Below are positions 17,866-38,148 of a stretch of DNA of 62,468 bases, in pieces. The position numbers were made by a program, and so were the translations under genes. The stretch lies in IMG/VR virus record IMGVR_UViG_3300006802_000003, positions 1-62,468 of that record. One strand, written 5' to 3'. How positions within the stretch are numbered: position 1 is the stretch's first letter; every line of letters begins with the position of its first letter. Source of the DNA: a virus. Under the pieces are notes generated by a model, which worked only from the letters and a program-made list of their open reading frames with translations, was not told the DNA's origin and did no database searches.

Positions 17866-18651
17866 ATGGGTATTTTCGATTGGCTATTTGGCTCGAACCA
17901 AGAAAAAACCGGGAGTACCAAGGTCGAGATTCCAAAGTGGATCGAGGACGCCGGCAAGTCCAATTACCAGTTTGCCCAATCCATCGCCAACAAGCCCTAC
18001 GAGGCCTACGGCGGGCCGGGCGTGGCCGACTTTAGCGGCCTTTCCAACAAGGCGTTTGACCTGATGGGCGGCATGTCCTTGCCCGCGCTTCTAGCGGGCG
18101 GCGGCGGTTTTGATATGTCTCGCCTGGGCGAGTTTATGAACCCGTTTACGCAATCGGTGATCGATAGCTCCATCAGCGACATGATTAAGGGCTCGCAGAT
18201 CGCGGGCGAAAACATGGACAACGCCTTTCACCAGGGCGGTGCGTTCGGTGACATGCGGCAAGGCGCGTTCGACGCCGAAAACTTGTCGAATCTGCGCCAG
18301 GACATCGGCAGGATGTCGAGTGGCCTCAACATGCAGAATTTCAATCAGGCGATGGACAGCCTGTTCAAGCTGCCGCAGTTCGAGAACCAGCAGCAACAGA
18401 ACGCCTTCTCGTTCCTTGATGCGCTACTCGGCGGAGGCGGCCTGCAAGAGAACAAGGCGCAGCAGGGCATCAATTGGGACTATGGCCAGTGGCAGGAAAA
18501 GCAGGGTGATGACATCAACAAGCTCAATATCCTTTCGTCGGCTCTGTCTGCAACGCCTTACTCCAAGGAGCAAACCACTTATGAGGCTGCACCATCTACG
18601 GGCGCCAAGGTTCTTGGCACCGGCCTGAATATCGCATCAATGTTCATCTAG
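17866..18651 (+). CDS. Probable internal virion / ejection protein
   Basis: This 261-residue protein has N-terminal MGIFDWLFGS, which looks amphipathic. A Gly-rich hydrophobic stretch follows around 60-80, then helices rich in Gln, Asn and Met with recurring RQ/QD/FE patterns. The wording and position just before the giant protein match small ejection proteins of podoviruses that assemble inside the portal channel. It has no catalytic motif. It is followed after ten bases by a second helical protein of the same module. Confidence 0.6.
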   Translation: MGIFDWLFGSNQEKTGSTKVEIPKWIEDAGKSNYQFAQSIANKPYEAYGGPGVADFSGLSNKAFDLMGGMSLPALLAGGGGFDMSRLGEFMNPFTQSVIDSSISDMIKGSQIAGENMDNAFHQGGAFGDMRQGAFDAENLSNLRQDIGRMSSGLNMQNFNQAMDSLFKLPQFENQQQQNAFSFLDALLGGGGLQENKAQQGINWDYGQWQEKQGDDINKLNILSSALSATPYSKEQTTYEAAPSTGAKVLGTGLNIASMFI

Positions 18652-19646: not shown

Positions 19647-22600
19647 ATGGCTGAAAAAGTCTTGATGCCGTGGGAACGCGACTGGAGCAACTTCCAGGCG
19701 GAACCCACGACACCTGATGAAACACAAGCGGCCCCTGCGGAAGATCAGGGTGACATGCCGTGGCAGCGCGATTGGTCGAACTACAAATTCATTGACGATC
19801 GCTTGCCGGGGATGGAGAAGGGCGACAAGCCAGAACCACCTACGCGCACGATCCAAGAGAAGGCCGCCGAGAAGGCCGGCATTTCCACGTCAGGTCGCCC
19901 AGTATGGCAGACGCCGGAAGGTGAACAGTACAGCGAGAAAACCGTCACCTTCCCGCTCGATGATGAAGGGAAGTCGTGGGCAACATTTCCGTCGGTCGAT
20001 GCCAGCGGCAAGGAAATGTCCGAGGACAAGGTTAAGCAATACGTTCTCCAGAACGGTTTGATTGACCCGATCACTGGTGAGAAGTTCCCGACATTTAACA
20101 GCCGCGAAGAAGCCTTGGCGTATGCTAAAGAACGCAGCGCCACGCGCCTCAAGGGCGAACCGTGGATGGAAGCTCCGGAAGTTAGCCCATTCAATCCACC
20201 GGCACCGAGCGCACCGGGCGAAGCGCCAACGACAGCAGAACGTGTCTCCAACTTTGGCGAGGGCGTTGTGCGCGGCGGCATAGACACCACCGGGCTCGCA
20301 GCTAAAGGCCTGGCCACCCTTGGCATGGTGAAGGACATCGAAGGCGTCACCGGCCTATTCAAATCTCTCGACAGCGCCAAGGATTGGACGCCGCAGCAAC
20401 GCAAGGACTTCCGTTGGGCCGTTCGCAACCAGCTCACCGAATCGCCCGGCCTTGGCATGGCCATGATCGACGCGGCGGACAAGATGCGTCGCGGCGAAAT
20501 TAAGTCGATCCAAGACGATCCGGAGCTAGTCAAGAAGTTCCAGGCCGCAATTCAGGACCCGCGCGAACGCCAAGCGTTTGCATTGGGTGAATGGCTGAAA
20601 GCCTACGGCCAAGAGAACTTCGGCGGCGATCCCCGGCTGCAAGAGGCTTGGGACACCAAGATTGCGCAGGGCTTTGGCTCGACGCTGCCGTTTCTCGCTC
20701 TTGGCCTGATGCCCGGCGGACAGGTTCTAGGTCCGATGGCCGGCACGTTCATGGGCCGCGGGGAGGCGCTGGAAAACGCTCTTGATGCGCAGCGCCAGGG
20801 CAAGAAGGTCGATCGCCAGCAGTTGCTCGATGCCGTTGGCTGGGGAACAATCCCCGGCGCGTCCGAATCGATCCCGATCGAGAACCTGCTGGGCCGTCTC
20901 CCCGGCGGCAAGGCGCTCGAAGCGATGGGCGCCATTGGCCGCATTGGCATGCAGGTGCTTGTCGAAGGCGGACAAGAGGCATTCCAGCAGTTCGCGCAAA
21001 ACGTCATTCAAAACTATGTCTACGACCCCAAGAAGGATTTGACCGAGGGCATCCTCGAATCAGCAGCGATCGGCGGTATTGTCGGCGGCGGCATGGGCGC
21101 CGTCACCGAGGGCGTCAAGGCTACAGGCTCTGCCGTGCTTGGAAAGGGCGACCGCGAGGAAGGTCCGCCGGAAGGCGACGCCACCATTTCCGCCGAGGCC
21201 ACGGCGACCGGCCAGACATCCACCGGCCCGGTCAAGACCAAAGAAGATGCTGTCCCGCCCGGCCCGCGCGCCGATCAGGTTTTGAAAGATGCAGGCTGGA
21301 CGGAAGAAGAAATCGCAGGCATGGCTCCACAGGCCCGCGCCCGCGCGGTGGAAGAGGCAATACAAACTGGCGTCAAGCCAGCCCCACAGCCCGGCCCCGC
21401 ACCTGGTACAGCTCCAGCAGCCCCGCCCATTCAGCGTGAGCAGCCCACCCGCGAGCCTACCAGCGACATCGATGCGCAGCTACGGGACCTCAAGGACCCG
21501 AACAACGCGCGCACGGCTGTCTACCTCTCCCCGACTACCGTTCAGCAGGCCATAGACACCGGCAAGCTGGACGCGATGAAAGCCGCAGGCGTTGCGATCG
21601 AGGACTTCGATGGCAAAGGCGGCATTCTAATCGCTGAAAACGACCAGTTCGCGCAAATGGCCACCCAGGCCAAGGCAGATGGCGTCCCGACCGACCAGAT
21701 CATCGGCATACTTACTGGATCAGGTCAGGGCAAGCCGGAAGGCGGCGATACCGTTGTCCAGCAGCGCGATGAGCAGGGCAATGTCACGCGCGAAACCGTC
21801 ACCACTGCCGATCAGGCGCAGCAGACGGCGCAGGCAATGCAAGAGTCCGGTCGCGGAACCACTGTCCTGTCGCCAGAGCAGGCGCTGGACGAGCGGGAAG
21901 CCCGCGCGGCTGCCGAAGTACCGGAGCCCGGCAAAGCCCCTGCAGCGCCCCCGCGCGTGGGCTCCAAGGACAAGCCGATTGATCTGGATCAAGTCGGAAA
22001 GCAGTTTGGCGGTGTGTTTGGTGCGCGCGAGGATGCCCGCGAAGCAGTCGAAGAGCCCAAGTCTGACGCCCAGGCCGAGGCTGGCAACTACAAGCATGCC
22101 CATGTCAGCGTAAACGGCTTTGGCATTGCGATGGAGACGCCAAAGGGTGGCCGGCGTACTGGCACCAATGAGGACGGGCAGCGGTGGGCCGTCAAGATGC
22201 CTGCCGATTATGGGCGCCTCAAAGGCACGAAGGGCATGGACGGCGACCAGATCGACGTTTACCTGGGCGAAAACACCCAAGCCTCTACGGTCTATATCAT
22301 CAACCAGCGCAACCTCGACGGATCGCCCGACGAGCATAAGGTGATGATGGGCTTTGACTCCGAGAAGGAAGCCCGCGACACTTACTTCAAGGGATTTAGT
22401 GACGGCAGCGGCCAGGCACGGCTTGACTCGATGGTGCCGATGTCGCTGGAAGAGTTTCAGGATTGGATCGACAATGGCGATCATACCAAATTCGTAGGAC
22501 CTTCCGATGAAGCAACACAAGTGCAGAGAGGCGAGGATAATCAGGGCGATGTGGGTGCATCGCCGGTATCTCCAGAGCCAACACCGGAAGGCGGTGAGCC

Positions 22601-25600
22601 CCGAGCACAAGGAAGTATGGAAAGTAGCGATCAGGTCGGCGGACGTGGCGCTGGCGACCGCGTTCAGCCTGATCCGGAACAACTAAGAGCTTTCCGCAAC
22701 TACCTTGTCGGCCCAGGCTCGATTGCCGACATCGACAAGCTGGCAAAACAACTCAAAATGCCTCGCGATGTTGTGGCCGCGATGTTGCAGGACGCCGCGA
22801 AAGACGGCGCGGTGATCGCCACGAAATCGGGCTCGTTCCGCCGGGCGCCGAAAGAAAAGAAGCCAGTGGACCTTATACGGTTCGTCGCTCACATCGGCGG
22901 CATTGCCGACCCTGACGGCGACGTGTCGGCCTTGACCGGCGGCACCAATCCCCTCGTTCCTGGCAAGGGCAAGCTCATTCGCGCCAAGGGCAATCGTCCA
23001 GACAAGGTGCGCGAGTTGGCCGTTGAGGCTGGTTATCTCCCCGAAGGCGCAAGCATCCGTGACCTGTACGACGCGATGGACCGCAACATGCGCGGCGATC
23101 GTGTCATTCGCGATGAGGATGCGGAATGGGAACAGGAGCTGCAGGCCCAGCAAGAGCAGGATGCGCTCAACGAAGAGTTTCCGACTGACGCTGAAAAGGA
23201 CCTGGTTCGCAAGCACGGCATCGGCGCGGCGCGCAAGCTCATCGCATTCCAGCAGGAAACCGGCCTTGGCGTTGGCGGCATGTCCGACGAAGAGGTTGCC
23301 AGGGCGGCGTCTTACATCGATCAGGGCATGGACGTGGATTCAGCAATTGAGCGCGCCGCGATCGAATACGCTGACGAAGGCCACATCAACGGCTATGATG
23401 ACATTACGGAGATTCCAGTCGATGAAATTTACCCGGACACAGCACCTGCAGATGGCGAAACGATCGAAGCAGATTTCGGCAGGGACGAAGGACCAGAAGA
23501 AGAAGGCCAAGTACAACGGCCTCGCCAAGACGTTCCGCGCACTAGCGAAAAGAGCGAAAAACTAGACAACAAGGCATTTGATCTAAGCATCAAGAAAGCC
23601 AAGGAAGCTGGCATAATTGGCGACTGGGAAACAAACACCACCATGTCGCCAGACAAGGTGTTTCCAAAACTTACAGGTAAAGTCGTTCGGGCCGAGGATG
23701 TGGCTGGTGACTATCTGCCGCCCGCCGAGGCCAAGTCCCGCGTGAAGGAATGGAAGGATTTTGCCAAGGCGCAGGGCGACACGATGCAAAATAGCAATCG
23801 CGTGATCCTGTCGTTGTTCGACTACACCGGAAACTGGTCAAAGCCGTTTGTCGATGCTGGCTTCACGGTCGTTCAGTACGACATCGAGTTGATGAAGGAG
23901 GACCCAGAATACGCCCCTGGCGACGAGAGGTTTGGGGAAATCTTGTCGCGCATGCCTACGGCTGACATTATCGCTTTGCGCAGCGCGGGTTATGAAATTT
24001 ATGGCGTCATGTCTGCCTGTCCATGCACCACGTTTGCGTCGTCCGGCGCTAGGTGGTGGGAGAGCTTGCATGACGTGGAATCGCGCGAGGCGGTGGAAAA
24101 GGTGTTTGGCGAATGGGTGCCGCAAGGCTTTGAGAGCCCGTTCGAGTACAACAAGGCGCTGGTTGCTGCCACCGAGGTCATTATTGAGTTTGCCAATCCG
24201 ACCGGCTTCCATGTGCTGGAAAATCCCGTTGGACGGCTTGGCCGCGCGACTGGGCTCGACAAACCTCAATATCGCTTCGACCCGAATAATTTTGGCGATC
24301 CGTACACCAAGAAAACGCAGCTTTGGGGTGATTTTGGAACGGAATTGCCGACCGCAAATGTGGAGCCAACCGAGGGCTCATTGATTCACAAGAAATCAGG
24401 CAAGGACCGTAGCCGCAGCGATACGCCGCTTGGCTTCGCCTATGCGTTCTTCATGGCCAACAATCCGGATGTGCGTAAGCCGTCGCGCGTTGTCGAGGAC
24501 CGTAGCGAAATGGACCCCGAAAAGCGGGCCGCGCGGGAGGAATATTGGGGTTGGCCAAATCCGATAGACGGCAAGATTGTCCAACGCAAGGATTTGTTGC
24601 CTGCCATTGAGGAGCAGGACGCCGATGCCTGGCCGCCCTACCGCGGCGACGTTCCAGAGTTTGGCAAGTTCGATGAAGAGCAAGAACTGGAAAACGGCAA
24701 CAAGGTTGCCTATTCCCGCTTGTCGTCTCTCAAGAAGGATGGCCAATGGCGAACCCACAGCATCTACAAGGAAATGCTGCCGAAGGGTGCGCCCATCTGG
24801 AGCAAGTCTGCTTCGGTCGTTGCGAAAGACAAGGAGGCCGCCGAGAAGCTGGCGTATGACATCCTGCACGGCGACGTTCAGCCCGACCTGTCTGGCACGG
24901 CAACCGAACGGCTCAACCAGTTCATGGATTGGGCGCTTGAGCACAGATACGATTCGTACAAAGGCAAACGCACCGGCGCTAATCCATACAATCTCGAAGT
25001 GCATTCCTGGAAGGATGAACCTCAAACGGATTTGCCAGATCAGGTGCAGTTTAGTTGGGGAGGGCCGAAAGAAAACGAGTTCGAGCACCAGAATAAAATC
25101 AAGTTCGTTCGTGAGGGCGACACATGGGCGATTGACCGCTTCACGCTTGCGGACAAGCCGCTTCGCAAAGCCGAATACAAGAACCGCTTGAATGACGTTG
25201 CCGAGCAAATCCTGTCCTTACCAGGCCTAGTGCCTGGCGCAATGCCGCAAGCGACAGACCTGTTCGCCACAGAGGCTGGCGCGGACGGCAAAGGGCAGAC
25301 AGTTATGCCCGGCATGGAGAAGATTAGCGACAAGGAGCTCGCAGAGCGCAAGGCCAAGGGCAAGAAGAAAGCCGCCGTTGCGCAGAAGGACATGGACGAG
25401 GGCTTGTTCGGAACGGACAAGGACCAAGTGGACATTGCAGACGTTGAGCAGCCTTCCGGCCTGTGGTCAGGTGACGACGATCCCCGCATTCCAGAAGGGC
25501 GCAAGGCGACCGCAGAGGTCAAGAAGCCGGTTGGCTACACGGAGATTTTTGGCCATGACCTAAACTTGAGTCCTACTTTCCAACCACCAAAAGAGCACCT

Positions 25601-28600
25601 GGTTCGCATCACAAACGAAACGCTCATTCACTATGCCAAGCGATACGATGTGCCGTGGGAAGGGCGGACGCGCGGCGAAGTATGGGCCGACATGCAGGCA
25701 AAAGGTGCAAAGAATGCAGGCTACGGCCAGATCATTCTCACACCGCACAAGGCCAAGGCCGCGGTGCAGTTGCTGCAAAACGCTGGCTACGGCGAAGGCG
25801 CCAAGATCAGCCACCAGCTATTTGCTAAGTTCAAGAAGGTACTTTTTGAAAACCTCGACCTCGTAAGGACAGAGGGCGAGTCGAACAGTGAAAAGCTAGG
25901 CGGAAACTGGACAGTTGGACACCTTCGGCAGCGCAAAGGCAACTATTCAATAAGCTGGGGTGCATACGGTCCCGATACGGTACTTCTCACCAGCATTACT
26001 GATCCCGAAAACGGCGTGGGCTATTCGGGCAGCACTGCAGGCGCAGCCAGAGTCAAGCGAGCTATCGAGGCGTTCATCGAGGAGAACAAGGACCGTAAGG
26101 GCGGCCCAGCTCCAGCGCCCCAGGAGCCAGCGAAGCCAGAGACTGAAATTCCGTCGCAGGAGCCAGCGCCGATCGCGGACATGGGAATTAGCATATTTTT
26201 CCGCGACGACGGCAAGCTGTCCAGGGACGTGAAGCAGGTTATTGTCGAAGTCGGCATGCACATGAATCCGAACGCGACCGCCGACGAGCGCAAGCGGGTG
26301 ATTGTGGACGGCTATTTCAAGTCTCCAAGGGCAGCCGGTTTCGCTTTTGACAGCGATCAAGGCGCCGGTATTCGCGTTGTCGATTACAATGGGAAGCCCT
26401 CGTTTGTCTCGGCACGGCAGGTGCGCGATGGCACCGTTCGCATTCGCGAGGACAAGTCTCCACCGCCATTGCCAACACAGCCAGAACAGGATGAGGATGC
26501 GTTTCTGGACGACATCATCAGCCAGGAACTGGGTGAACAACCCGCAGCAACCCCGCTTGCCAAGATCAAATCCCAGTTGATTGCCTATGCTTCTGGCATG
26601 ACTCGTACCAAGGATTTCGCTGCAGGCGCATATGCGTGGGGCAAGGAAAAGAACCTTGGCCTGGGTGTCGATGCAACCGAGCTCACCACAGAGGCAATCA
26701 AGGCTATCGCAGAGCGTCACGTCAACATGCAGACCAACTTGTTTGTTGATTCTGGCGCGTTCGGTGTGTTCCGGCGCAACATGCGCGCGGTTACGGAATA
26801 CCGCAAGGCCGCAGGCGATCTATTCCGGCAGCAAGGGCTCCCCACCCCGAAGCTGGAGAAAATGGACTTTGACAACGTAATTGCCCGTTACGAGCATCTG
26901 CAACTCGCCATCGAGAATGAGAATGTTGCCGAGGACCAGGATGTGCCGGCACCGTTGTTTGTTGCGCCTGACATTGTTGGCGACCAGCAGGGCAGCCTCG
27001 ATCTGCTGCGCCAGTTCGCGCCATCGATGCGATTCATTGGCAAGGGGCAGGTGGTCGTTCCTCTCCAGAAAGGAGACATGACGCTTGCCGAGGCTTACGC
27101 CAAGGCCAAGGCAATCATGGGCGGCAAGCCGTTCATTGCAGGCATTCCGTCCAATGCAAAGGCTGTAAGCGCCGAGGAGTTCCGGCAGTTCGTTCGCGAA
27201 TCTGACGCGACTGCCTTCCACTTCCTGGGCGCACTTTCTCCCAAGACGCTCGATCCAAAGCTGCAGGTGCTTGCGGATGAGAACGTGGACATCACGCACG
27301 TTTCTGCCGACGCCAATCTGCTGCGGTCAGCCCTCTATGGCAGCGCCGTAGCAAAAGAGCTTGGCCGTCCGGATGCAATCGTCAAGACGCTCGATGAGCA
27401 ACGCACGATTGGCCAGGCAGCCGCATCAGCAGCCAAAAACATTGGCGAGGGATTGAAAGACGTTGGCGACGCCTTCAACACCCTATTCAACGACCCAAAC
27501 AAGCTGAAATCCGGCATAGGCTTTGACGAAGAAACCTACGCCCGCGCAAAGCCCATTTTCAAAGCGGGCGCCGCTCATTTCTACGAAGCAGGCATGGATA
27601 TTGCCGAGGTTCTGCAAAAACTGGTACGTTGGCTCATGGCAAAGGACGGCGGCAACCAGCCGCCGGAAGCCATTAACCGGGCTCGACCGTACCTCAAGCA
27701 ATTCGTCAAAGACGTTCGAGACGGCAAGGAGCAAATCGATGTACCAGATCGACAGCCAGATATGGAACCAGGTCGCGGAGGCGAGCCCGCTCAAGACCGG
27801 CTTCGCGAAACGAATGTTCCCGCTGCCGCAGGACCAGATGGAGAAGGAGCTGGAGGCGGAAGAGGCCAGACTGGTGAAACTCAAGAGGGTGGACCCGGTA
27901 GTGGTGGCGGCATATCTGGCAGTAATGCCTCTCCTATGGGAAGCCGAATCGATCAGCGCATTTCTCGACCAGAGGCCGGGATTAGCGACTTCAATCCAAC
28001 CGATACCGACACTGACGGAGGCGTTGAGGGCGGCCAGCCAAGACTACCCATTGACAACGGCAGACCAGACAGCACTTCGGAATTTGCTACAGATAGCCCC
28101 GGAATAAAGGATCGCCAGAAAGCCCAGGCTGCCGCCGAATCCATTGAGGTCAAGGACGCTGACCTAGACAACATTCGCGAAACGCTCCCGATGCTGTATC
28201 CAAAGCAGCAGGAGGACGTTTACAAGATCGAGCAGCGTTTCACCAAGGGCGCCGGTATGCTCATCACCAACGGCACCGGCACTGGCAAGACGTTTTCCGG
28301 CCTTGGTGTCATCAAGCGGTTTGCCAAGAAGGGCAAGGGCAACATCCTGATCGTTGCTCCTTCTGACGGCATCCTGCGGGCGTGGATCACGTCTGGCAAG
28401 CTCCTTGGCATCGACATAAACAAGCTGGACGACACCAAGAGTGTAGGCGAGGGCATAGTTGCTACCACCTACGCCAACCTTGCCAACAACGAGACGCTGG
28501 CCGATCGCGAGTGGGATTTGGTCGTCACGGACGAGGCCCATAACCTTTCGTCCAACAAGGACGGCGCCGAAACTGCAAACCTCTCCACCTTCCGCGCCAT

Positions 28601-31600
28601 CACCCGCCACCCGCGCGCCGTGGTTAAGCGGACACAAATGCTGCATCGCGACCTGATGGAGAAGATTCGGAAGGTCAAAAGCGATCTGGAAGTTGCACGG
28701 ACTGCTGACGATCAACGCTGGTGGGCTCAAATTGAAGGGTACGAACGCCAACTCAAAGAGTATTGGAACCAATACCAGGAGCTCCAGAAGGCCGTTGAGG
28801 CCGACATGAAGGCCAAGCCGCGGCCCAAGGCGCTCTTCCTGTCTGCAACGCCGTTCGCGCATGTGTTCTCGGTGGACTACGCAGAGGGTTACCTGTTCGA
28901 CTACCCAGCCGACAAGCCCGGCGGCGGCTACAATTCCGCAGACGGTCGCAATGCGTTCTTTGTCGAAAACTTCGGCTTCCGCATGCGCTACAACAAGCTG
29001 ACGCGGCCAGAAGCGGAAGTGGATAGTTCGGTCATGGAGCGCCAGTTCCATGAGAAGCTGAAAAAGGAAGGCGCTCTTTCCGGTCGCAAGCTCGATGTCG
29101 AGCACGACTATGACCGCCGCTTCCAGACGGTCAACGACAAGGAAGGCGCCCGCATCGATGAGGGCTTCAAGTGGCTCCGCGATCAGGGCAAGGGCTTCCA
29201 TGCCGTAGCCGACATTTACCAGAAGAATTTCGACTACCTATCTCGCATGCGCTTGCTTGAGGCCATGAAGGCCAAGGCGGCAATTCCTTACATCCAGGCC
29301 CACCTTGATGCTGGCCGCAAGGTCATGGTGTTCAACAACTTCAACGAGGGTGGCGGCTTCACCGTATTCCCGAAGCTCATATCAGACGACGAAGTGTTCT
29401 GGTACGACGACAACATGAAACAACAGAGCGCCAAGCTCAAAGATCTGTATCAGGCATTCGAGGATGCCAATCCGTGGATCACCAAACTGGACTTCTCCGA
29501 CTATGACGCGCCGCGCCACACCCTGCGGGCAGCGTTTGGTGATCGGTTTGGTGAGTATAACGGCACCGTCACCGCGAAGAAGCGCGCCGAGAACCTGGAG
29601 CGGTTCAATAAGCCGGAAAGCGGCCTTGATGTCCTTGGCGTTCAGGCGGACGCCGGCGGAGCTGGGCTGTCTGGTCACGACACGCTGGGCATAGCGGAAG
29701 GCGGCAGGCAGCGCGTCCTTATGAACCTGGGTATGCCTGTGCGCCCGGTCACTGCAATCCAGCAGGAAGGCCGCATCTATCGCGATGGGCAGATGTCCAA
29801 TGCCATGTTCCGCTATTTCACGACCGGAACCACATGGGAGCGCATGGCCTTTGCGGGCTCGATCGCTGAAAAATCGGAAACGGTCGAGAACCTGGGCATG
29901 GGCGACATGGCCAGATCGTTGCGCGATTCGTTTGTCGATGCCTACGAAGAGGCAGGAGACTTCCAGCCTGGCCATGAAGATGAAGGGGTGGGTGGCAAGG
30001 AGCGCGACGCGCCGATCACCAACAATATGTCTGACTTTGAGCGCGCCAAGACGCATTATTGGGCGATCCAAAAGAACACTAGCAAACGCGAAAGCCGCGG
30101 TGAGTATTACGCTACGCCAGAGCCGGTCGGCGTCAAGATGGTGGAATGGGCCAACATCAAGGGAAATGAGCGCGTTCTGGAGCCGTCCGCCGGTCATGGC
30201 GCTATCTCCAGGTACATCCCGGCTAACACCAGCACGACCATTATCGACACCAACGAGGACCTGCTTTCGTCGGCAATGCTGCGGACCCAGCATGCCAAGG
30301 CGATCCGCAGTCAGTTTGAGGGCCACAACATCGTCAACAAATATGATGCTGTGGTGATGAACCCGCCGTTCGGCCAGGGCGGCAGTCTCGCAATCGCTCA
30401 CTTGGAAAAGGCTGTGAAGCACCTTCGCAATGGCGGTCGTGTCGTGGCCTTGATTCCGACCGGGCCTGCTGCCGATGCAAAATTCGACAAGTGGTGGCAC
30501 AACACCGATGGCAGCCTTGGCATGGTGGCCGAAATCAAACTTCCAAGCGTGACGTTCGCCCGCGCTGGCACCGGCGTTATGACCCGTATTGTCGTGATCG
30601 AGAAGCAGACGGATAAGGAAGTCGGGACGCCGATGGGGCCGCGCGCCGATCTGTCAGGCGCCCAGGACATCAATACGCTGTTCGATGCGCTCGACAATAT
30701 CACTTTGCCGCCTCGCGCGGAGCCGCTGACCAAGGACATCGACGCGCCGGCCATTGGGGAGTTCCGTATTGCTGGCATCGATGTAAACCTGCAAGAAAAT
30801 GTTGTGGGGCTTGCGAAGGGCGTAAAGCTGTCCAAGGAGCAATTCAAGCATTGGGCTCGGCTGGGCGAGGCCGCGCAAGGCACATACCTTAAAAGCCTTC
30901 GCGGATGGATGTTTGACAACCAGGAAATGCGCGACGCATTCCTTGCAAGCGTCGAGAAGAACCCCGAGCCCGCAATCATGGCGGAACCTGCCCCAGCCAC
31001 CCTGGACTTCGAGAAGAAGAAGGCGTGGCATGCGGTCAAGCAGCGCGACACGTTCGTTGCCGTTCCAAACCAACGCATCAGCACCGATGATTATGCCCGC
31101 GTGAAGCGCGTAGCGCAGGCCAATGGCGGATACTGGAGCAAGTACGCACAGAATGGTGCGATCCCTGGGTGGCAGTTTGAATCGGAAGCCGCTCGCGACA
31201 AGTTCATCGATGAAATCAAGGCAGCCCGGCCAAAGGACCTGGGCGCCCGCACCGAAGTGCCACTTTGGTATTCGCGCTTGGCTCGTTTTGTCCAGACGAT
31301 TCCGATGGCGAAGGGAACGCCAGATCAGTTTGCGGCCATGATCCAGAAAGGTCCGCTCAAGCCCAGCGAAATCGCCTGGAGTGGCGTCATAGAGTGGCTG
31401 GAGACGGAAAAGAACCTTGGCCGCCAAGTGGAGCGCGACCGACTGCTGGAATGGCTGAACGATAACCAGATCGCCATTGATGAGAATGTGCGTCAAGGCG
31501 GTTCGCCACTTGCCGAAGAGTTTTGGGTGAGCGACTTCGAGCGCGAAGAGCCAGGCCAAGAGTATGTCGATGACATTGCTCAAGACTACTTGCCAGATGA

Positions 31601-34600
31601 ATTGCAACGGCTGGCCGACGACAAGGGCGTTGCCGTCGATGAGCTCGATGATGCGGACGAGGAAGCTGCATTCGATGCTGCACGGCAACAGGCCTACGAC
31701 CACGCATCGGAAATGGCGAGTCAGAGGGCCAACGGCACCTATACCGGCTTCGCTGGGGATCAAGACTTCGAGGTTACGCAAGACGCGGACACCGGCGAAA
31801 TGATGCTCTACATGACCATCGAAGGAGTTCACTATTCCGAAAGCCTTCGCCGGTTTGCCGACAGTGCTGAAATCAAGCAGGCCGTCAGGGAAATGTACTC
31901 CGAGCATTACCGCCGCAATGATGAGGATTACAAGGAGACACTGCATGCCGAGCACACGGAGCCCGGCGGCGAGGACTATACGGAACTGACACTCACGCTT
32001 CCCTACGACACCGTAAAGATTCCGCAATGGGCGGTCACCGTCGCCACTGCAACACCCGGCGTCAGGCGTGTAATTTCTCGCTATACGGATCGCCAGAACG
32101 CGGAATGGTGGATCAAGGAAAACAAGCCAGATGATGCCGAAGTTGAATTGCAGTGGGTAAACCGCACCCACCTGGTCGAAGATCACTGGCCGGATGAAGA
32201 GAATGTCATTGCCCACCTGCGCTTCAAGACCCGCTATATCGATGGCAAAAAGGTCATGGCCATTGAGGAGGTTCAGGGTGATCTAGGCCAAGAGCTACGC
32301 GACAAGAAAAAGGAATTGGCTCGCCTCGAAGGCAATCCGGCTGTCAACAAGGACTACCTGGCTGTCAACAAGCGCGACATCGACTTCCTTGAGAAATTCC
32401 CGTTTACCCCGTCCGAGGAATGGAGCGCGCTTGCGATCCGCCGGGCGCTGCGCTGGGCCGTGGACAATGGCTTCGATCGTGTCGCATGGACGCCGGGCGT
32501 TGTCCAGGCGAAGCGGTGGAAAGCGGATCACTACATTAACGCTTTCACCGTGCTCAACCGCAGTGAATATGCCGGCACACCCACCTTCCAGCTCACCCTT
32601 GAAGCCGACACCGGCCTGCACATCCTAGAATTTGATGATCGACAGACCATCATTTCTGCCAAGGGCTGGGTGATGTCCAAGAACCTTGGAAAAAACCTCA
32701 AGGAAGTGTTTGGTGAGCAGATGGCCGCCGACATTGTGGCCGCCATCAAGCCGAAGGATGGCACCGGCTTCAAGCAGTACAAAGAACCGATCCGCTGGGG
32801 CGGCGAAGGTCATCGCTTCTATTACGACACCCTGCTGCCAAAGCTGGTTGGCAAGATCGCCAAGCCGTTTGGAGCGAAAGTTGAAGCCTTGCAAATGGCC
32901 GACCTTCCAACGCCGGTTACTGATGCGGACGTGATCGCTTATCACGATATGAGCGTAGAGTTTTGGCGCTCCCTCACGACGCGACAGAAAATGGACTTGT
33001 CCAATGAGGCAATGAAAGGCAACGCTGGCGGCTACCAAAAATGGTGGTCGCTCGACGTAAACGACGCCATGCGCCAGGAAGTCAGCCAGGGCATTCCTCT
33101 TTGGCAGAAGAAATACCTAAAGGCCGCCAATCCAAACGAAGGGCGCCGCCTGACGACACGCGAGCAGGTGCGCATCAAGGAAATGGTGGACGAAGTGGCC
33201 CAGCGCGTCCTTGGTCGGTCATTGCGCGGCGTGAAGCTGTTCACGCGCCTCTATGACGAGGCCAATAGCGGCGCTTACGAGCACGGCACCGGCGTAATCA
33301 AGCTGGCGCTGGAAGGTTGGCTGAACCCGTTGGTGGGCATTCGCCACGAATCGATCCACGCTTTGCTGCGCACTGGCGTCATTTCCAAGCCTGAATTTGG
33401 CGTCCTTCGCCGCAACGCCGCCCGCTGGCGCCGGGACTACAGTATCGAGGAACGCTATCGCGACTTCTTTGAGGAGAATTACCCGCAAGACATGCCTGGC
33501 CGCAATGCTGCGATTGAGCTATCGATGGACGAGGAAGCCATTGCCGAAGCGTTTGCGCGTCATTGGATGCTGCAAGAAGAGCGCGGCATCATCGCTCGCA
33601 TCTTCAACAAGATGAAGAATTTCCTGGAAGCCTTGCGCAACGGGCTAACTGGGCTGGGCTACGAATCGGCGGAACAGATATTTAGCCGCATCGAGGAGGG
33701 CGAGGTTGGCGAGCGCACCCCACGCATTCCCCGCAGCGTTAGCGCGCCCACCACGCACCTGTACGCTTCGGGCAAGCCGGCGCCTGCACGGTCTATCGAA
33801 ATGGGCGATACGCCGAGCATTACGCTGGCGAAACCGCCCAGGCTATTCGCCAAAGACCCTCGCTTCAACTTTGAAGAGGGGGCCGATGGCAAGCCGCAGT
33901 CAATGATTCCCGGCTCCGAATCTATGACTAAGGCGCAGCTCGACATTATCAAATCGCGTGAAGCCAAGCGCCGTGCCGAGTTGACATATAAATCAACTCT
34001 CAAGCCAACGGTCGAGCAGGAAAAGATTGGCGGCCTGTTTGAGCAGGTGGAGAAAGACGACGATCCACAAGGCTCACTGTTCGTTCGCAACGTGTTGCAA
34101 GGCAGCCATGCCGTGTCGATTCCGCAGCGCACCAGGCGCATGCTCCAGCACCTTCGCCAAGGCGCCAGCGAATACACGGTTCTATGGCGTCGCCGCATGC
34201 AGGACAGGTTCATTGACTGGAAAAACCTGGAGCGCAAGATGGCGCTGCCAGAATATCTGTCCGTATATCGCGCGGAAGAGCTCTATTATGGCAAGGTCGG
34301 CGGGCGCATGGATGATATGCGCTGGACTCACTTCGAGCCCATCATGCGCGCGATTCGCGACAAGAAAATCAAGGTGGACGAGTTCAACAAGTTCCTGATG
34401 GCCATGCATGCCAAGGAGCGCAACGACTTCATCGCCACGCGCAACCCGAAAATGCCGGATGCCGGTTCTGGTATCGCTACCCAAGACGCACTGGACTACC
34501 TCAACATGCTCCGTCGTCATGGCAAACTGCGCGACATGATGGATGTGGGCCGCATGGTATGGGCCATGAACCAGGCTGCGCTTGATGAGCGACTGGCGGA

Positions 34601-36806
34601 CGGCTTGATTAGCGCCCAGCTCCATAATGACCTTTCTACACGGTGGAATTATTACGTTCCGCTGCGCGGATGGGCCGTTGACCTCGATCCAGACGCTGAT
34701 CCCGAATTGCCGCGTGTAGGCAAGGGATTTTCGGTAATGGGCAAGGAATGGAAGGCCGCCCTTGGCCGCGAGTCCGTGGCTGACGATCCGCTTGCCTATT
34801 CCTTCACGCAAATGCAGGAGGCAATTGTTCGCGGCGAAAAGAACCGCGTCTCGACCACGTTCCTACGTCTAATGCGCCGTTATCCCGCGCCCGACACATG
34901 GGAAGAGATTAAGGGCCACATGCGCCGTCACCTGGACAAGAAAACCGGCACGGTAAAGGAGATTTGGGAACCGGAAACCGGCTACGATAAGGATGTGCTG
35001 ACGATCAAGGTCAATGGCAAGCCGGTCTATGTAAAGATCAAGGACAAGAATCTGCGCAAGTCGATGCTTGAAATGGGATCGACCGACATGGGGTGGGTGC
35101 AACGGCACCTTCACAAGCTGAATAGGTTCCTGGCCGCGGTCAATACATCGCACAACCCCGAGTTCATTCTCACCAACCTCGCTCGCGACATTCAGACCGC
35201 AGCAATCAACGTGACCCAGGCCGACATCAAGGGGCTGGAAAAGGCGATGCTCATGGACATGCCCAAGGCCTTCAAGGGTGCCTTGCGCGGATCGCGCGGC
35301 GACTTCTCAACGCAATGGGCGCAGCACTACAAGGAGTTCAACGAGGACGGCGGCAAGATTGCGTTTTTCGCCATTGACGACATCGAGGCCCAAAAGAAAA
35401 AGATGGTGGCCGAAATGCATCGGATCGCTCCCGGCAATCCGGCGCGAGCCGCCTTCAACTATGTGATGAAGTTGGACGGCATCATTCAAGATTACAATAT
35501 GGCGGTCGAAAACACGCTCCGCCTGTCCGCTTATGTGAATGCCCGCCGTCTTGGCGCCAGCCGGTCCAGGGCCGCCAGCCTGGCCCGCAACCTGACCGTC
35601 AACTTCAACAAGCGCGGTGAGTGGGGAACCGCGATGAATGCCTGGTACTTGTTCTATAACGCTGGCATTCAGGGCTCGTTCCGGATGCTGCAGGCTCTTC
35701 GCTATAGCCGTAAGGCGCAAATCGCCGCCGGCATACTGGTGGCAAGCGGCATGTTGCTCGACATTTTCAATCGCTGGATAGGTTCTGATGATGATGAGGA
35801 GGAAATGCCGAACAGGTACGACCAGATTCCGGCATGGGAGAAAGAGCGCAACTGGATTCTGATGGTCCCTGGCGCGGACAACGGACACTACATCAAGATT
35901 CCTATGCCTTGGGGCTACAACACGTTCCATGTTCTCGGTCAACAGATTGGTCGGCTCATGCCGGTACTGGGTGATCCAAAGGCAGAGGTTTCCGACGCCC
36001 TGAACACCATTCTTGTCACGTCGATGAACGCCTTTAACCCAGTCGGCGGGTCGGATCGCATCACCCGCATGCTCTCGCCAACCATTGGCGATCCGTTCTT
36101 TGACATTGGCGAAAACCTGACCTGGTTCGACTCGCCGCTAATGCCTGACTATGGCAACGGCGACAAGCGTCCGGACTCGCAAAAGGCTTGGAACAGCACC
36201 CCGCAAAAGTGGAAAGACCTTGCGACGTTCCTCAATGAACAAACAGGCGGCAATCAGTGGCGGCCTGGAGGGATCGATGTTTCACCTGAAACGCTGCAGT
36301 ATTGGTATGAGTTTGCAACCGGCGGAGCGGGCGCGTTCGCCAATCGCACGGCCAACTTTGCCGAGCGCATGGCCGCCGGGCAATGGGACAAGATTGAAAT
36401 GTTCCAGGTTCCGTTTGCGCGGCGCTTCTATGGCACACCTAACGACCGGCAGTTAGCAAACGACTTCTACAACCTTCTGGACGAGGCGCGCATCGTTGAG
36501 AAGGAAATCAAGGGCTTTCATGCCGAAGGGAAGCACGAACTGGCCAAGGAAATTGCCAGTACGCCAGCCGGGGCGACCTACAAGCGCATCAAAAAAGCCC
36601 ACAACACCATTGCGCAACTGAAATCGCGCATGAAGGAAATACAGGGCAATGGCAGCTTGACCGAGGAACAAAAGGACGAACGGCTCAAGCCCTACGTCGA
36701 TAAGGTCGAGCACAACATGCGCAATGCCGTCAAGGCCTACTACAATGCGGCCAAAGAAGCGTCAGGAGACACGCTCACGGACAATCTGCTGGACGTGTTC
36801 AGATGA
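19647..36806 (+). CDS. Giant polyvalent virion protein: PPase, C5-MTase, TGT/DpdA-like, helicase, N6-MTase, zincin, LPD38-type domains
   Basis: One uninterrupted 5,719-residue frame. Domains seen, with approximate residues: duplicated MPWxRDWSN motifs at 7-17 and 37-47; a Gly-rich hydrophobic section 340-500; inorganic-pyrophosphatase-like domain 813-950 (GMDGDQIDVYLG); helical/HTH-like section 1010-1170; C5-cytosine-methyltransferase-like domain 1383-1607 (SACPCTTFASSG, VLENP); tRNA-guanine-transglycosylase/DpdA-like barrel 2305-2575 (FVDSGAF, APDIVGD); DEAH superfamily-2 helicase 2830-3440 (GTGTGKT, DEAH, QQEGRIYRDG); N6-adenine methyltransferase 3480-3660 (LEPSAGHG, NPPF); a conserved region 4118-4470 with EEVQGDLGQ; zincin-like domain about 4500-4690 (HESIH at 4567); and a C-terminal LPD38-type region 4790-5670 with a membrane-like segment near 5357-5380. 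Such proteins are known to be packaged and injected. The helicase-methyltransferase pair resembles phage P1 DarB, so protection from restriction is the likely core role. The C-terminal family name is from memory. Confidence 0.9.
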   Translation: MAEKVLMPWERDWSNFQAEPTTPDETQAAPAEDQGDMPWQRDWSNYKFIDDRLPGMEKGDKPEPPTRTIQEKAAEKAGISTSGRPVWQTPEGEQYSEKTVTFPLDDEGKSWATFPSVDASGKEMSEDKVKQYVLQNGLIDPITGEKFPTFNSREEALAYAKERSATRLKGEPWMEAPEVSPFNPPAPSAPGEAPTTAERVSNFGEGVVRGGIDTTGLAAKGLATLGMVKDIEGVTGLFKSLDSAKDWTPQQRKDFRWAVRNQLTESPGLGMAMIDAADKMRRGEIKSIQDDPELVKKFQAAIQDPRERQAFALGEWLKAYGQENFGGDPRLQEAWDTKIAQGFGSTLPFLALGLMPGGQVLGPMAGTFMGRGEALENALDAQRQGKKVDRQQLLDAVGWGTIPGASESIPIENLLGRLPGGKALEAMGAIGRIGMQVLVEGGQEAFQQFAQNVIQNYVYDPKKDLTEGILESAAIGGIVGGGMGAVTEGVKATGSAVLGKGDREEGPPEGDATISAEATATGQTSTGPVKTKEDAVPPGPRADQVLKDAGWTEEEIAGMAPQARARAVEEAIQTGVKPAPQPGPAPGTAPAAPPIQREQPTREPTSDIDAQLRDLKDPNNARTAVYLSPTTVQQAIDTGKLDAMKAAGVAIEDFDGKGGILIAENDQFAQMATQAKADGVPTDQIIGILTGSGQGKPEGGDTVVQQRDEQGNVTRETVTTADQAQQTAQAMQESGRGTTVLSPEQALDEREARAAAEVPEPGKAPAAPPRVGSKDKPIDLDQVGKQFGGVFGAREDAREAVEEPKSDAQAEAGNYKHAHVSVNGFGIAMETPKGGRRTGTNEDGQRWAVKMPADYGRLKGTKGMDGDQIDVYLGENTQASTVYIINQRNLDGSPDEHKVMMGFDSEKEARDTYFKGFSDGSGQARLDSMVPMSLEEFQDWIDNGDHTKFVGPSDEATQVQRGEDNQGDVGASPVSPEPTPEGGEPRAQGSMESSDQVGGRGAGDRVQPDPEQLRAFRNYLVGPGSIADIDKLAKQLKMPRDVVAAMLQDAAKDGAVIATKSGSFRRAPKEKKPVDLIRFVAHIGGIADPDGDVSALTGGTNPLVPGKGKLIRAKGNRPDKVRELAVEAGYLPEGASIRDLYDAMDRNMRGDRVIRDEDAEWEQELQAQQEQDALNEEFPTDAEKDLVRKHGIGAARKLIAFQQETGLGVGGMSDEEVARAASYIDQGMDVDSAIERAAIEYADEGHINGYDDITEIPVDEIYPDTAPADGETIEADFGRDEGPEEEGQVQRPRQDVPRTSEKSEKLDNKAFDLSIKKAKEAGIIGDWETNTTMSPDKVFPKLTGKVVRAEDVAGDYLPPAEAKSRVKEWKDFAKAQGDTMQNSNRVILSLFDYTGNWSKPFVDAGFTVVQYDIELMKEDPEYAPGDERFGEILSRMPTADIIALRSAGYEIYGVMSACPCTTFASSGARWWESLHDVESREAVEKVFGEWVPQGFESPFEYNKALVAATEVIIEFANPTGFHVLENPVGRLGRATGLDKPQYRFDPNNFGDPYTKKTQLWGDFGTELPTANVEPTEGSLIHKKSGKDRSRSDTPLGFAYAFFMANNPDVRKPSRVVEDRSEMDPEKRAAREEYWGWPNPIDGKIVQRKDLLPAIEEQDADAWPPYRGDVPEFGKFDEEQELENGNKVAYSRLSSLKKDGQWRTHSIYKEMLPKGAPIWSKSASVVAKDKEAAEKLAYDILHGDVQPDLSGTATERLNQFMDWALEHRYDSYKGKRTGANPYNLEVHSWKDEPQTDLPDQVQFSWGGPKENEFEHQNKIKFVREGDTWAIDRFTLADKPLRKAEYKNRLNDVAEQILSLPGLVPGAMPQATDLFATEAGADGKGQTVMPGMEKISDKELAERKAKGKKKAAVAQKDMDEGLFGTDKDQVDIADVEQPSGLWSGDDDPRIPEGRKATAEVKKPVGYTEIFGHDLNLSPTFQPPKEHLVRITNETLIHYAKRYDVPWEGRTRGEVWADMQAKGAKNAGYGQIILTPHKAKAAVQLLQNAGYGEGAKISHQLFAKFKKVLFENLDLVRTEGESNSEKLGGNWTVGHLRQRKGNYSISWGAYGPDTVLLTSITDPENGVGYSGSTAGAARVKRAIEAFIEENKDRKGGPAPAPQEPAKPETEIPSQEPAPIADMGISIFFRDDGKLSRDVKQVIVEVGMHMNPNATADERKRVIVDGYFKSPRAAGFAFDSDQGAGIRVVDYNGKPSFVSARQVRDGTVRIREDKSPPPLPTQPEQDEDAFLDDIISQELGEQPAATPLAKIKSQLIAYASGMTRTKDFAAGAYAWGKEKNLGLGVDATELTTEAIKAIAERHVNMQTNLFVDSGAFGVFRRNMRAVTEYRKAAGDLFRQQGLPTPKLEKMDFDNVIARYEHLQLAIENENVAEDQDVPAPLFVAPDIVGDQQGSLDLLRQFAPSMRFIGKGQVVVPLQKGDMTLAEAYAKAKAIMGGKPFIAGIPSNAKAVSAEEFRQFVRESDATAFHFLGALSPKTLDPKLQVLADENVDITHVSADANLLRSALYGSAVAKELGRPDAIVKTLDEQRTIGQAAASAAKNIGEGLKDVGDAFNTLFNDPNKLKSGIGFDEETYARAKPIFKAGAAHFYEAGMDIAEVLQKLVRWLMAKDGGNQPPEAINRARPYLKQFVKDVRDGKEQIDVPDRQPDMEPGRGGEPAQDRLRETNVPAAAGPDGEGAGGGRGQTGETQEGGPGSGGGISGSNASPMGSRIDQRISRPEAGISDFNPTDTDTDGGVEGGQPRLPIDNGRPDSTSEFATDSPGIKDRQKAQAAAESIEVKDADLDNIRETLPMLYPKQQEDVYKIEQRFTKGAGMLITNGTGTGKTFSGLGVIKRFAKKGKGNILIVAPSDGILRAWITSGKLLGIDINKLDDTKSVGEGIVATTYANLANNETLADREWDLVVTDEAHNLSSNKDGAETANLSTFRAITRHPRAVVKRTQMLHRDLMEKIRKVKSDLEVARTADDQRWWAQIEGYERQLKEYWNQYQELQKAVEADMKAKPRPKALFLSATPFAHVFSVDYAEGYLFDYPADKPGGGYNSADGRNAFFVENFGFRMRYNKLTRPEAEVDSSVMERQFHEKLKKEGALSGRKLDVEHDYDRRFQTVNDKEGARIDEGFKWLRDQGKGFHAVADIYQKNFDYLSRMRLLEAMKAKAAIPYIQAHLDAGRKVMVFNNFNEGGGFTVFPKLISDDEVFWYDDNMKQQSAKLKDLYQAFEDANPWITKLDFSDYDAPRHTLRAAFGDRFGEYNGTVTAKKRAENLERFNKPESGLDVLGVQADAGGAGLSGHDTLGIAEGGRQRVLMNLGMPVRPVTAIQQEGRIYRDGQMSNAMFRYFTTGTTWERMAFAGSIAEKSETVENLGMGDMARSLRDSFVDAYEEAGDFQPGHEDEGVGGKERDAPITNNMSDFERAKTHYWAIQKNTSKRESRGEYYATPEPVGVKMVEWANIKGNERVLEPSAGHGAISRYIPANTSTTIIDTNEDLLSSAMLRTQHAKAIRSQFEGHNIVNKYDAVVMNPPFGQGGSLAIAHLEKAVKHLRNGGRVVALIPTGPAADAKFDKWWHNTDGSLGMVAEIKLPSVTFARAGTGVMTRIVVIEKQTDKEVGTPMGPRADLSGAQDINTLFDALDNITLPPRAEPLTKDIDAPAIGEFRIAGIDVNLQENVVGLAKGVKLSKEQFKHWARLGEAAQGTYLKSLRGWMFDNQEMRDAFLASVEKNPEPAIMAEPAPATLDFEKKKAWHAVKQRDTFVAVPNQRISTDDYARVKRVAQANGGYWSKYAQNGAIPGWQFESEAARDKFIDEIKAARPKDLGARTEVPLWYSRLARFVQTIPMAKGTPDQFAAMIQKGPLKPSEIAWSGVIEWLETEKNLGRQVERDRLLEWLNDNQIAIDENVRQGGSPLAEEFWVSDFEREEPGQEYVDDIAQDYLPDELQRLADDKGVAVDELDDADEEAAFDAARQQAYDHASEMASQRANGTYTGFAGDQDFEVTQDADTGEMMLYMTIEGVHYSESLRRFADSAEIKQAVREMYSEHYRRNDEDYKETLHAEHTEPGGEDYTELTLTLPYDTVKIPQWAVTVATATPGVRRVISRYTDRQNAEWWIKENKPDDAEVELQWVNRTHLVEDHWPDEENVIAHLRFKTRYIDGKKVMAIEEVQGDLGQELRDKKKELARLEGNPAVNKDYLAVNKRDIDFLEKFPFTPSEEWSALAIRRALRWAVDNGFDRVAWTPGVVQAKRWKADHYINAFTVLNRSEYAGTPTFQLTLEADTGLHILEFDDRQTIISAKGWVMSKNLGKNLKEVFGEQMAADIVAAIKPKDGTGFKQYKEPIRWGGEGHRFYYDTLLPKLVGKIAKPFGAKVEALQMADLPTPVTDADVIAYHDMSVEFWRSLTTRQKMDLSNEAMKGNAGGYQKWWSLDVNDAMRQEVSQGIPLWQKKYLKAANPNEGRRLTTREQVRIKEMVDEVAQRVLGRSLRGVKLFTRLYDEANSGAYEHGTGVIKLALEGWLNPLVGIRHESIHALLRTGVISKPEFGVLRRNAARWRRDYSIEERYRDFFEENYPQDMPGRNAAIELSMDEEAIAEAFARHWMLQEERGIIARIFNKMKNFLEALRNGLTGLGYESAEQIFSRIEEGEVGERTPRIPRSVSAPTTHLYASGKPAPARSIEMGDTPSITLAKPPRLFAKDPRFNFEEGADGKPQSMIPGSESMTKAQLDIIKSREAKRRAELTYKSTLKPTVEQEKIGGLFEQVEKDDDPQGSLFVRNVLQGSHAVSIPQRTRRMLQHLRQGASEYTVLWRRRMQDRFIDWKNLERKMALPEYLSVYRAEELYYGKVGGRMDDMRWTHFEPIMRAIRDKKIKVDEFNKFLMAMHAKERNDFIATRNPKMPDAGSGIATQDALDYLNMLRRHGKLRDMMDVGRMVWAMNQAALDERLADGLISAQLHNDLSTRWNYYVPLRGWAVDLDPDADPELPRVGKGFSVMGKEWKAALGRESVADDPLAYSFTQMQEAIVRGEKNRVSTTFLRLMRRYPAPDTWEEIKGHMRRHLDKKTGTVKEIWEPETGYDKDVLTIKVNGKPVYVKIKDKNLRKSMLEMGSTDMGWVQRHLHKLNRFLAAVNTSHNPEFILTNLARDIQTAAINVTQADIKGLEKAMLMDMPKAFKGALRGSRGDFSTQWAQHYKEFNEDGGKIAFFAIDDIEAQKKKMVAEMHRIAPGNPARAAFNYVMKLDGIIQDYNMAVENTLRLSAYVNARRLGASRSRAASLARNLTVNFNKRGEWGTAMNAWYLFYNAGIQGSFRMLQALRYSRKAQIAAGILVASGMLLDIFNRWIGSDDDEEEMPNRYDQIPAWEKERNWILMVPGADNGHYIKIPMPWGYNTFHVLGQQIGRLMPVLGDPKAEVSDALNTILVTSMNAFNPVGGSDRITRMLSPTIGDPFFDIGENLTWFDSPLMPDYGNGDKRPDSQKAWNSTPQKWKDLATFLNEQTGGNQWRPGGIDVSPETLQYWYEFATGGAGAFANRTANFAERMAAGQWDKIEMFQVPFARRFYGTPNDRQLANDFYNLLDEARIVEKEIKGFHAEGKHELAKEIASTPAGATYKRIKKAHNTIAQLKSRMKEIQGNGSLTEEQKDERLKPYVDKVEHNMRNAVKAYYNAAKEASGDTLTDNLLDVFR

Positions 36807-36925
36807 GCGACAAGATGGTGTTGGTAATCATCATCAGTGCCATCCTCTCAATCGTCTTTGACCTACAGCCCTCGATAGATCAGGGCTTGCGAATCCCCGA
36901 TGGACCTATGGAGGAATGGAAATGA
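36803..36925 (+). CDS. Tiny single-span membrane protein, possible holin
   Basis: This 40-residue protein is translationally coupled on both sides: its ATG overlaps the stop of the giant gene and its stop overlaps the endolysin start (ATGA in both cases). Residues 5-20 are strongly hydrophobic (MVLVIIISAILSIVF), followed by a polar tail. Its place directly before the endolysin makes a holin or pinholin role attractive. A structural role is also possible. Confidence 0.6.
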   Translation: MSDKMVLVIIISAILSIVFDLQPSIDQGLRIPDGPMEEWK

Positions 36926-38148
36926 CCGAGTTCCAGGCAGGCGCCGCCTTGCAGCGCACCAAGGGCGCCGTTGAGCGCGCCGCAGCGATGGTGCCATGCC
37001 ACCCGGCGATGATTGCTGCATTCATCGATGTGGAGGCTGGCGGGACCGGCTATTACGCCAACAACATGCTCAAGGTGCTGCCAGAGCCTCACTGGCTTTA
37101 CCGCCTGCTGCCAACCGGCCAGCGCAACAAGGCGCTAATGCTGGGACTGGCAATCAAGAGCTGGTCGCGATCCACCTACAGGCGCATGTTTCCAACCGCG
37201 ATGTCGCGCTACGATTACCTGAATGACGTGGCTAGTCGCTGGGGCAAGGAAATCGCCGTTGACACGGCGTCCTGGGGCGCCGGGCAGGTCATGGGCTTCA
37301 ATGCGGAGAAGTGCGGCTATGGCTCCGCCGTTGAAATGTATGATGCATTCGCCGGGTCGGAAGATGAGCAAATCATTGCAATCGTCAAGTACCTGATCCG
37401 CTCCGGTGGACGTGACGAGTTGCAGCGCGAGGACTGCCAAGGCTTGGCGAGGATCTACAATGGATCTGGACAAGTGGCCATCTATGCGCCGCGCCTTGAA
37501 GAGGCCTTGAAGCGCCGCAAACGTCAAAAGTGGCAAAAAACACCTAATTCGCGTTTGCCTGCCAAGCGAGACAAAGATTGGATAGGCATGGGCGACAGCG
37601 GCGCCCAGGTCAAAGTCCTGCAGGAGCAGCTAGTCGCGCTGGGTTACTTTGTCGAAGTGGACGGCGACTTCGGGCCAGCGACCAGGAGGGCGGTGCGCAA
37701 CTTCCAGCATGACCGCGGGCTAAAGGTCGATGGATACGCTGGATCGGACACTATGGCCGAGCTCATTCGCGCCAAGCCGGTCCCTGCGGTCTATCAAGGC
37801 AATCCAACCGAGCGCGAGGAGGCGACCGGCGACGATCTGCTGGCCAAGGGATCGAGCACGGTGCGTCGCGCCCGGCAGGGAAAACTTACCAATGTCGTCA
37901 CTGGGAGTCTAGCTGGGGCAGGCGCTATAGGGAGCGTTATCGAGGCTGGCGAGACGGCACAAAGTAACGCAGAGCGCGCCGGCGGATTGTTGGAGTGGAT
38001 TCTACCAAACAGCCTGTCAGGCTATGTGGTTTGGATCATGGCCGTGGTCGCAGGGCTGTCCATCATCGGCTGGATCGTCAACAACAAGATCGAGCGCCGC
38101 CGCGTGGAAGAACACAGGCGGGGCAAAAACCTATCGATTGGAGGGTAG
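36922..38148 (+). CDS. Endolysin: N-acetylmuramidase with peptidoglycan-binding and C-terminal membrane segment
   Basis: This 408-residue protein has a DUF3380-type N-acetylmuramidase domain at residues 1-190. The catalytic glutamate is probably in FIDVEAGG, and SWGAGQVMGFNAEKCGY matches the family's glutamine-glycine motif. A PG_binding_1 domain follows at about 215-285 (GDSGAQVKVLQEQL, FGPATRRAVRNFQ). A linker and a hydrophobic helix at about 360-385 (YVVWIMAVVAGLSIIGWIV) precede a basic tail. The membrane segment would tether the enzyme to the inner membrane, or act as a built-in holin-like unit. The start with GGAGG seven bases upstream was preferred over ATG 36916. Confidence 0.88.
   Translation: MTEFQAGAALQRTKGAVERAAAMVPCHPAMIAAFIDVEAGGTGYYANNMLKVLPEPHWLYRLLPTGQRNKALMLGLAIKSWSRSTYRRMFPTAMSRYDYLNDVASRWGKEIAVDTASWGAGQVMGFNAEKCGYGSAVEMYDAFAGSEDEQIIAIVKYLIRSGGRDELQREDCQGLARIYNGSGQVAIYAPRLEEALKRRKRQKWQKTPNSRLPAKRDKDWIGMGDSGAQVKVLQEQLVALGYFVEVDGDFGPATRRAVRNFQHDRGLKVDGYAGSDTMAELIRAKPVPAVYQGNPTEREEATGDDLLAKGSSTVRRARQGKLTNVVTGSLAGAGAIGSVIEAGETAQSNAERAGGLLEWILPNSLSGYVVWIMAVVAGLSIIGWIVNNKIERRRVEEHRRGKNLSIGG

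Follow-up and report, generated by a model that had tools for sequence, protein, structure and literature searches.

DarB-type protection of phage DNA is known genetically, and how a virion protein shields the entering DNA is unsettled. The phage polyvalent proteins described by Iyer et al. in 2017 (PMC5512222) were proposed to be packaged, injected and split by a zincin, and their SNF2–methylase dyad was proposed to modify the entering DNA, as DarB does. DarB of phage P1 is a head protein present at about 40 copies per head, and its first 30 residues are enough for capsid targeting (PMC9024508). The DarB-like giant gp69 of JC1 was found with 51 unique peptides in CsCl-purified virions (PMC9144972). 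DarB-like giants of 3,700–5,000 aa are present in the podoviruses Bcep22/JC1, Atu_ph08, PBC5, Skulduggery, Parlo and Lastavirus ('PLxRFG').

The window studied here is a stretch of 62,468 nt that represents the entire virus record IMGVR_UViG_3300006802_000003 of IMG/VR. A direct terminal repeat of 123 bp is found at positions 1–123 and 62346–62468, which indicates that the record is a circularly assembled, complete genome of about 62.3 kb. The portal gene spans the two record ends. The giant gene and its neighbours are located as follows.

17866..18651, + strand: neighbouring DNA ejection-protein-like gene (PHROG 4287, 6e-8)
19647..36806, + strand: giant polyvalent protein gene, one ATG-to-stop frame, with relatives in isolated phages and IMG/VR
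36916..38148, + strand: neighbouring gene of an N-acetylmuramidase endolysin with a peptidoglycan-binding domain (PF11860 4e-30, PF01471 1e-19)

A sequence-only reading had described the giant as a single uninterrupted frame of 5,719 residues occupying over a quarter of the genome. Translation of 19647–36806 agrees with both statements. The 5,719 codons start with ATG and contain zero internal stops, and the 17,160 bases correspond to 27.5% of the approximately 62,345 unique bases. Given its base composition, a frame this long would stay free of stops by chance with a log10 P of about -92. The GC content at the three codon positions (63/42/68%) shows a codon-position bias, and a Shine-Dalgarno-like GAAGGA is found 5' of the ATG. 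The genes on the same strand are ordered as terminase, portal, major head protein, tail-fibre and structural genes, ejection-protein-like gene, giant and muramidase, which places the giant gene among late virion genes. Elsewhere in the genome, an ORF of 1,510 aa between portal and major head protein (4039–8571) is without Pfam, PHROG or PDB match. The C-terminal part of a RecT-like annealing protein (39958–41088, - strand) weakly matches ribosome modulation factor (0.0013, under the Pfam cut-off).

A comparison of the window protein with the phage polyvalent proteins (PMC5512222) shows many common features, namely a large enzyme chain, an inorganic pyrophosphatase (InPase), SNF2 helicase plus N6-adenine methyltransferase (N6-MTase), a zincin, LPD38 and a neighbourhood of virion genes. 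The earlier identification as a polyvalent protein is borne out by these signature domains together with the unrelated enzyme domains. The window protein differs by an additional C5-cytosine methylase (C5-MTase) and a domain similar to DpdA/tRNA-guanine transglycosylase (TGT). As in P1 DarB, the N6-MTase is fused to a SNF2-type helicase. However, the order in DarB is LPD36, methyltransferase, helicase, whereas the helicase comes first in the window protein, which has no LPD36 match. The helicase and N6-MTase are also shared with the DarB-like giants, and the helicase–methyltransferase region of 45A6, ZX1, Skulduggery and Parlo has about 45–51% identity to that of the window protein. The position before the lysis genes is likewise shared with the DarB-like giants, and it is the same for the giants of ZX1, Skulduggery, Parlo and 8P. 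In contrast, the DarB-like protein of Bcep22 reportedly has an N-terminal lytic transglycosylase (PMC6630229), which is absent from the window protein. None of the DarB-like giants compared combines all seven modules (InPase, C5-MTase, DpdA-like, helicase, N6-MTase, GNAT-like, zincin). The features along the chain are listed below.

19665..19787, + strand: duplicated N-terminal motif MPW[EQ]RDWSN[FY] at residues 7 and 37, seen in the sequence
20574..21059, + strand: N-terminal glycine-rich helical module, residues 310–471, common to other phage giants
22065..22478, + strand: predicted InPase domain, residues 807–944 (PF18823, 2.5e-45)
23712..24464, + strand: predicted C5-cytosine DNA methyltransferase domain, residues 1356–1606 (PHROG 757, 3e-34)
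26637..27446, + strand: DpdA/TGT-like domain, residues 2331–2600, by remote homology, conserved in several giants
28161..29915, + strand: predicted SWI2/SNF2-type SF2 helicase/translocase, residues 2839–3423 (Pfam ResIII 1.5e-11, PHROG 10691 2e-235)
30057..30716, + strand: predicted N6-adenine DNA methyltransferase, residues 3471–3690 (MTS 1e-5, PHROG 10691 1e-202)
30825..31484, + strand: conserved domain of unknown function, residues 3727–3946, in 51 of 156 non-redundant giants, without a family match
31461..33092, + strand: tentative GNAT-like acetyltransferase fold with insertions, residues 3939–4482 (AF2 model)
33321..33716, + strand: zincin-like metallopeptidase, residues 4559–4690, HESIH at 33345–33359, third ligand E4630
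34185..36740, + strand: C-terminal polyvalent module, residues 4847–5698, including LPD38 (35811–36416; 3.6e-41)

The motif MPW[EQ]RDWSN[FY] is absent from the remaining ORFs of the window and from the other giants compared. By analogy with the N-terminal 30 residues of DarB (PMC9024508), the duplicated motif is a candidate capsid-targeting signal. The glycine-rich module that follows is found in 39 of the 156 non-redundant giant ORFs. Residues 429–731 match the virion RNA polymerase family PHROG 2206 (4e-9), and residues 431–950 match the DarB-like PHROG 10089 (3.3e-30).

Four enzymes named in the earlier reading are supported by profile search of the chain. For the predicted InPase, the profile match is accompanied by intact catalytic residues, Asp865, Asp870, Asp895, Glu896 and Lys898, all invariant across 46 relatives. 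The putative C5-MTase is likewise supported by its profile and by catalytic PC (Pro1459, Cys1460) and ENP (Glu1525, Asn1526, Pro1527) motifs that are invariant in 28 relatives. PF00145 (DNA_methylase) is matched by 14 of 15 aligned members, although the window copy by itself gives no match. A PDB profile search with the C5-MTase alignment returned weak cytosine-methyltransferase matches ranked below spurious coiled-coil ones. In the predicted SWI2/SNF2 helicase, the Walker A Lys2881, the DE at 2962–2963, the SAT at 3066–3068 and QxEGRxxR are invariant or nearly so in 90 relatives. The N6-MTase motifs TP, LEPSAGxG (here LEPSAGHG) and NPPFG are conserved in 109 relatives. For both, profile matches and intact catalytic residues agree with the assignment. 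A single-sequence IMG/VR search with the helicase–methyltransferase region found no relatives.

The zincin-like domain has no Pfam, NCBIfam or PHROG match. Its earlier assignment holds through the HExxH...E signature, with His4567, Glu4568, His4571 and Glu4630 invariant in 77 relatives, which points to a putative metallopeptidase. The region preceding it was modelled by AF2 with low confidence (mean pLDDT 57). VIA-align of this low-confidence model placed acetyltransferase-fold chains or the like in its top rows (Z 9.7, rmsd 3.4, 140 aligned), and Foldseek against the PDB reached an E-value of 0.16 only. A GNAT-like fold before the zincin is proposed tentatively. The large polyvalent C-terminal region, also named earlier, stands with matches to LPD38, PHROG 14770 (5e-163) and PHROG 616 (2e-128), and this module is present in 113 of the 156 giants. 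A linker of the form GADGKxQxx[IVM]PGxE...GLF occurs twice in the giant, at residues 1878 and 4745 (window positions 25278 and 33879). A similar GADGKxQ linker is found in the giants L010, L082, L134 and L171, in L171 directly after the C5-methylase. It is possibly a spacer or a processing signal. A role as a general processing signal was dropped, since the regular expression matches just five giants.

The shared N- and C-terminal structural sequence is a large part of the chain. From this it could be argued that the giant is mainly a structural or ejection protein, with enzyme domains that are vestigial or aimed at host targets instead of phage DNA. However, the catalytic residues argue for selection on activity, since in the InPase, the two methylases, the helicase and the zincin they are invariant or nearly so among tens of divergent relatives. 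We consider such a mainly structural role very improbable.

The DpdA-like domain follows the C5-methylase and precedes the helicase. In the list of domains given by the sequence-only reading, a 'transglycosylase-like' one stands at this same place. The term is retained in the sense of base exchange, by remote homology to DpdA/TGT only, and not in the sense of a peptidoglycan enzyme. A lytic transglycosylase of SLT or lysozyme type was considered and rejected, with no Pfam or NCBIfam match anywhere in the chain. The DpdA-like domain was first recovered in two giants (L180 and L187) by phmmer across the collected giants. An alignment-based scan gave eleven loci. After merging repeats, the domain is present in 9 of the 156 non-redundant giants, the window protein counted, and six of these nine have a C5-methylase in the same chain. 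Copies in small ORFs were not found, and in this comparison only giant phage proteins carry the domain.

Phage DpdA, as known from Enterobacteria phage 9g (PMC6884629), is a free-standing protein, roughly 300 aa long, that in 9g is encoded beside preQ0 genes, whereas here the similar sequence is a domain of a giant. The two are alike in motif order, in a conserved D, D, H, D pattern and in a remote profile match. The DpdA-like motifs are, in order, FVDSGAF, PD[IV][IV]GDQ, PLQxGE, a conserved His and VSADAN. In phage DpdA they are FLDSGAF, LDVIGD, FHxGE, His196 and SVDSSSW. The D, S, G and A of DSGAF and the later H and D are invariant in the 11 DpdA-like copies, and the pattern is the same in 8 DpdAs. 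Alignment of the two profiles by hhalign gives a probability of 70 and an E-value of 3.9e-5.

It could also be that residues 2331–2600 are unrelated to DpdA/TGT and share the DSGAF motif by chance, which would be compatible with the preferred explanation elsewhere in the chain. In line with this, no Pfam family matches residues 2331–2600, the Pfam DpdA model PF23859 included, and no single-sequence match is significant. No homologues of residues 1641–2600 were found by tblastn in 50,697 phage records, and a single-sequence search with the same region found no relatives in IMG/VR or GTDB genomes. A PDB profile search with the DpdA-like alignment gave no useful match. The AF2 model of residues 1621–2700, made from the single sequence without an alignment, has a pLDDT of 38 and is uninformative on the fold. 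PHROG 887 matches the short DSGAF stretch alone, in relatives of the domain. Against a chance resemblance, the profile–profile score of 41.5 lies above those of all 200 column shuffles, which reach at most 24.9, and above those of the controls with four unrelated alignments and one reversed alignment, which reach at most 21.3. The common motif order (DSGAF, D[IV][IV]GD, PLQxGE or FHxGE, His, SADAN or SVDSS) argues in the same direction. In a rank test with the DpdA-like domain, 6 of 8 DpdAs rank among the first 24 of 2,764 sequences. In the reciprocal test, 10 of 11 DpdA-like copies are in the top 19; single E-values are not significant in either. We regard an unrelated domain as unlikely. Judged from these comparisons, residues 2331–2600 are probably a remote homologue of the DpdA/TGT superfamily, which performs 7-deazaguanine insertion, short of family membership. 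The DpdA/TGT-like family would thereby be extended to a new context, a giant phage protein.

The preQ0 genes QueC and FolE are absent from this genome. The DpdA-like domain, if active, must therefore be supplied by the host with preQ0 or a similar base. DpdA of phage 9g is by itself sufficient for preQ0 insertion into E. coli DNA (PMC6884629), so that a phage lacking preQ0 genes could draw on what the host makes.

The chain, its domains, the intact catalytic residues and the late-gene setting are established computationally. The chain had been said to look like a DNA-protection and modification kit, and this stands as a strong bias to DNA modification read from sequence (m5C, m6A, a probable 7-deazaguanine-type exchange, translocase and pyrophosphatase). 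The giant is quite probably a late, virion-associated polyvalent protein that is ejected with the genome and acts in cis on the DNA as it enters. That it is packaged and modifies the DNA in cis upon entry appears likely from the gene position, the shared N-terminal module and the homologous giants in virions of other phages (PMC9144972, PMC9024508). Another possibility is that the chain, produced late, modifies progeny DNA in the infected cell before packaging, with no or incidental presence in the virion. As in phage 9g (PMC6884629), the usual substrate of methylases and DpdA-type enzymes is phage DNA that is replicating inside the cell, and the giant gene is in a late operon. However, it lies among ejection and virion genes, its N-terminal and LPD38 modules are typical of phage-type polyvalent proteins, and the homologous giants are present in particles. 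Modification of progeny DNA is a distinctly unlikely explanation.

For a protein ejected with the genome, the following mechanism may be proposed. The N-terminal region would place the chain in the capsid, and the glycine-rich N-terminal and LPD38/C-terminal modules would serve packaging and ejection. As Iyer et al. proposed, the zincin may cleave at sites between the modules, either inside the particle or upon entry, and free the enzymes. The SNF2 motor would track the DNA, and the two methylases (N6-adenine and C5-cytosine), together with the DpdA-like domain, would mark it. The combined marks would block restriction enzymes of differing specificities. The pyrophosphatase and the GNAT-like domain could act on nucleotide or protein targets. 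The incoming DNA would be predicted to be disguised from bacterial defences from entry onward. In the family of the window protein, predicted enzymes for as many as three different base modifications lie beside one DNA motor. It is possible, although doubtful, that one injected chain with m6A, m5C and 7-deazaguanine base-exchange enzymes and a translocase marks the genome during entry. If true, phage DNA would be protected in a new way, by a DpdA-type base-exchange enzyme delivered in the virion.

Relatives in IMG/VR were found as 337 candidate stretches by the helicase–methyltransferase and 394 by the C-terminal region. Relatives in isolated phages include those of Ruegeria phage 45A6, Pseudomonas phages Skulduggery and 8P, Serratia phage Parlo, Klebsiella phage ZX1 and many Vibrio phages. 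The closest isolated relative is the 45A6 giant (ANH49087.1, 3,912 aa). It shares the N-terminal module, the helicase–methyltransferase (45%), the zincin (30%) and the C-terminal region (32%), but it has no InPase, C5-MTase or DpdA-like match, and the C5-methylase is a separate gene in the 45A6 genome. The 8P giant (QIW89234.1, 5,145 aa), annotated as 'structural protein', has a C5-MTase (41%) and an N6-MTase in one chain, but does not match the window protein in InPase, helicase or C-terminal region.

The polyvalent class and four of its enzyme types are already known. The main text of the Iyer et al. paper (PMC5512222) mentions neither a C5-methylase nor a DpdA-like domain in polyvalent chains. 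Among the titles and abstracts listed by literature searches, none describes a polyvalent protein combined with a cytosine methyltransferase or DpdA. All seven modules are found in the window protein only (1 of 156 non-redundant giants), a count that is a lower bound as many of the giants end at the edge of their sequence stretch. Six giants extended past their stretch ends gained no helicase match. The earlier description of the domain set as remarkable is overstated for the class, since phages commonly encode giants of 3,000–7,100 aa whose domain sets overlap. Two chains of 6,028 and 5,928 aa among the 156 giants are longer than the window protein. A 7,100-aa open frame (L198, record G006) contains InPase, C5-MTase, DpdA-like and N6-MTase domains. 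In another related giant (L172:5891-9490), an SLT lytic transglycosylase, an InPase and a C5-methylase are found in one chain, and this SLT module suggests that wall-degrading modules are swapped in and out among these giants.
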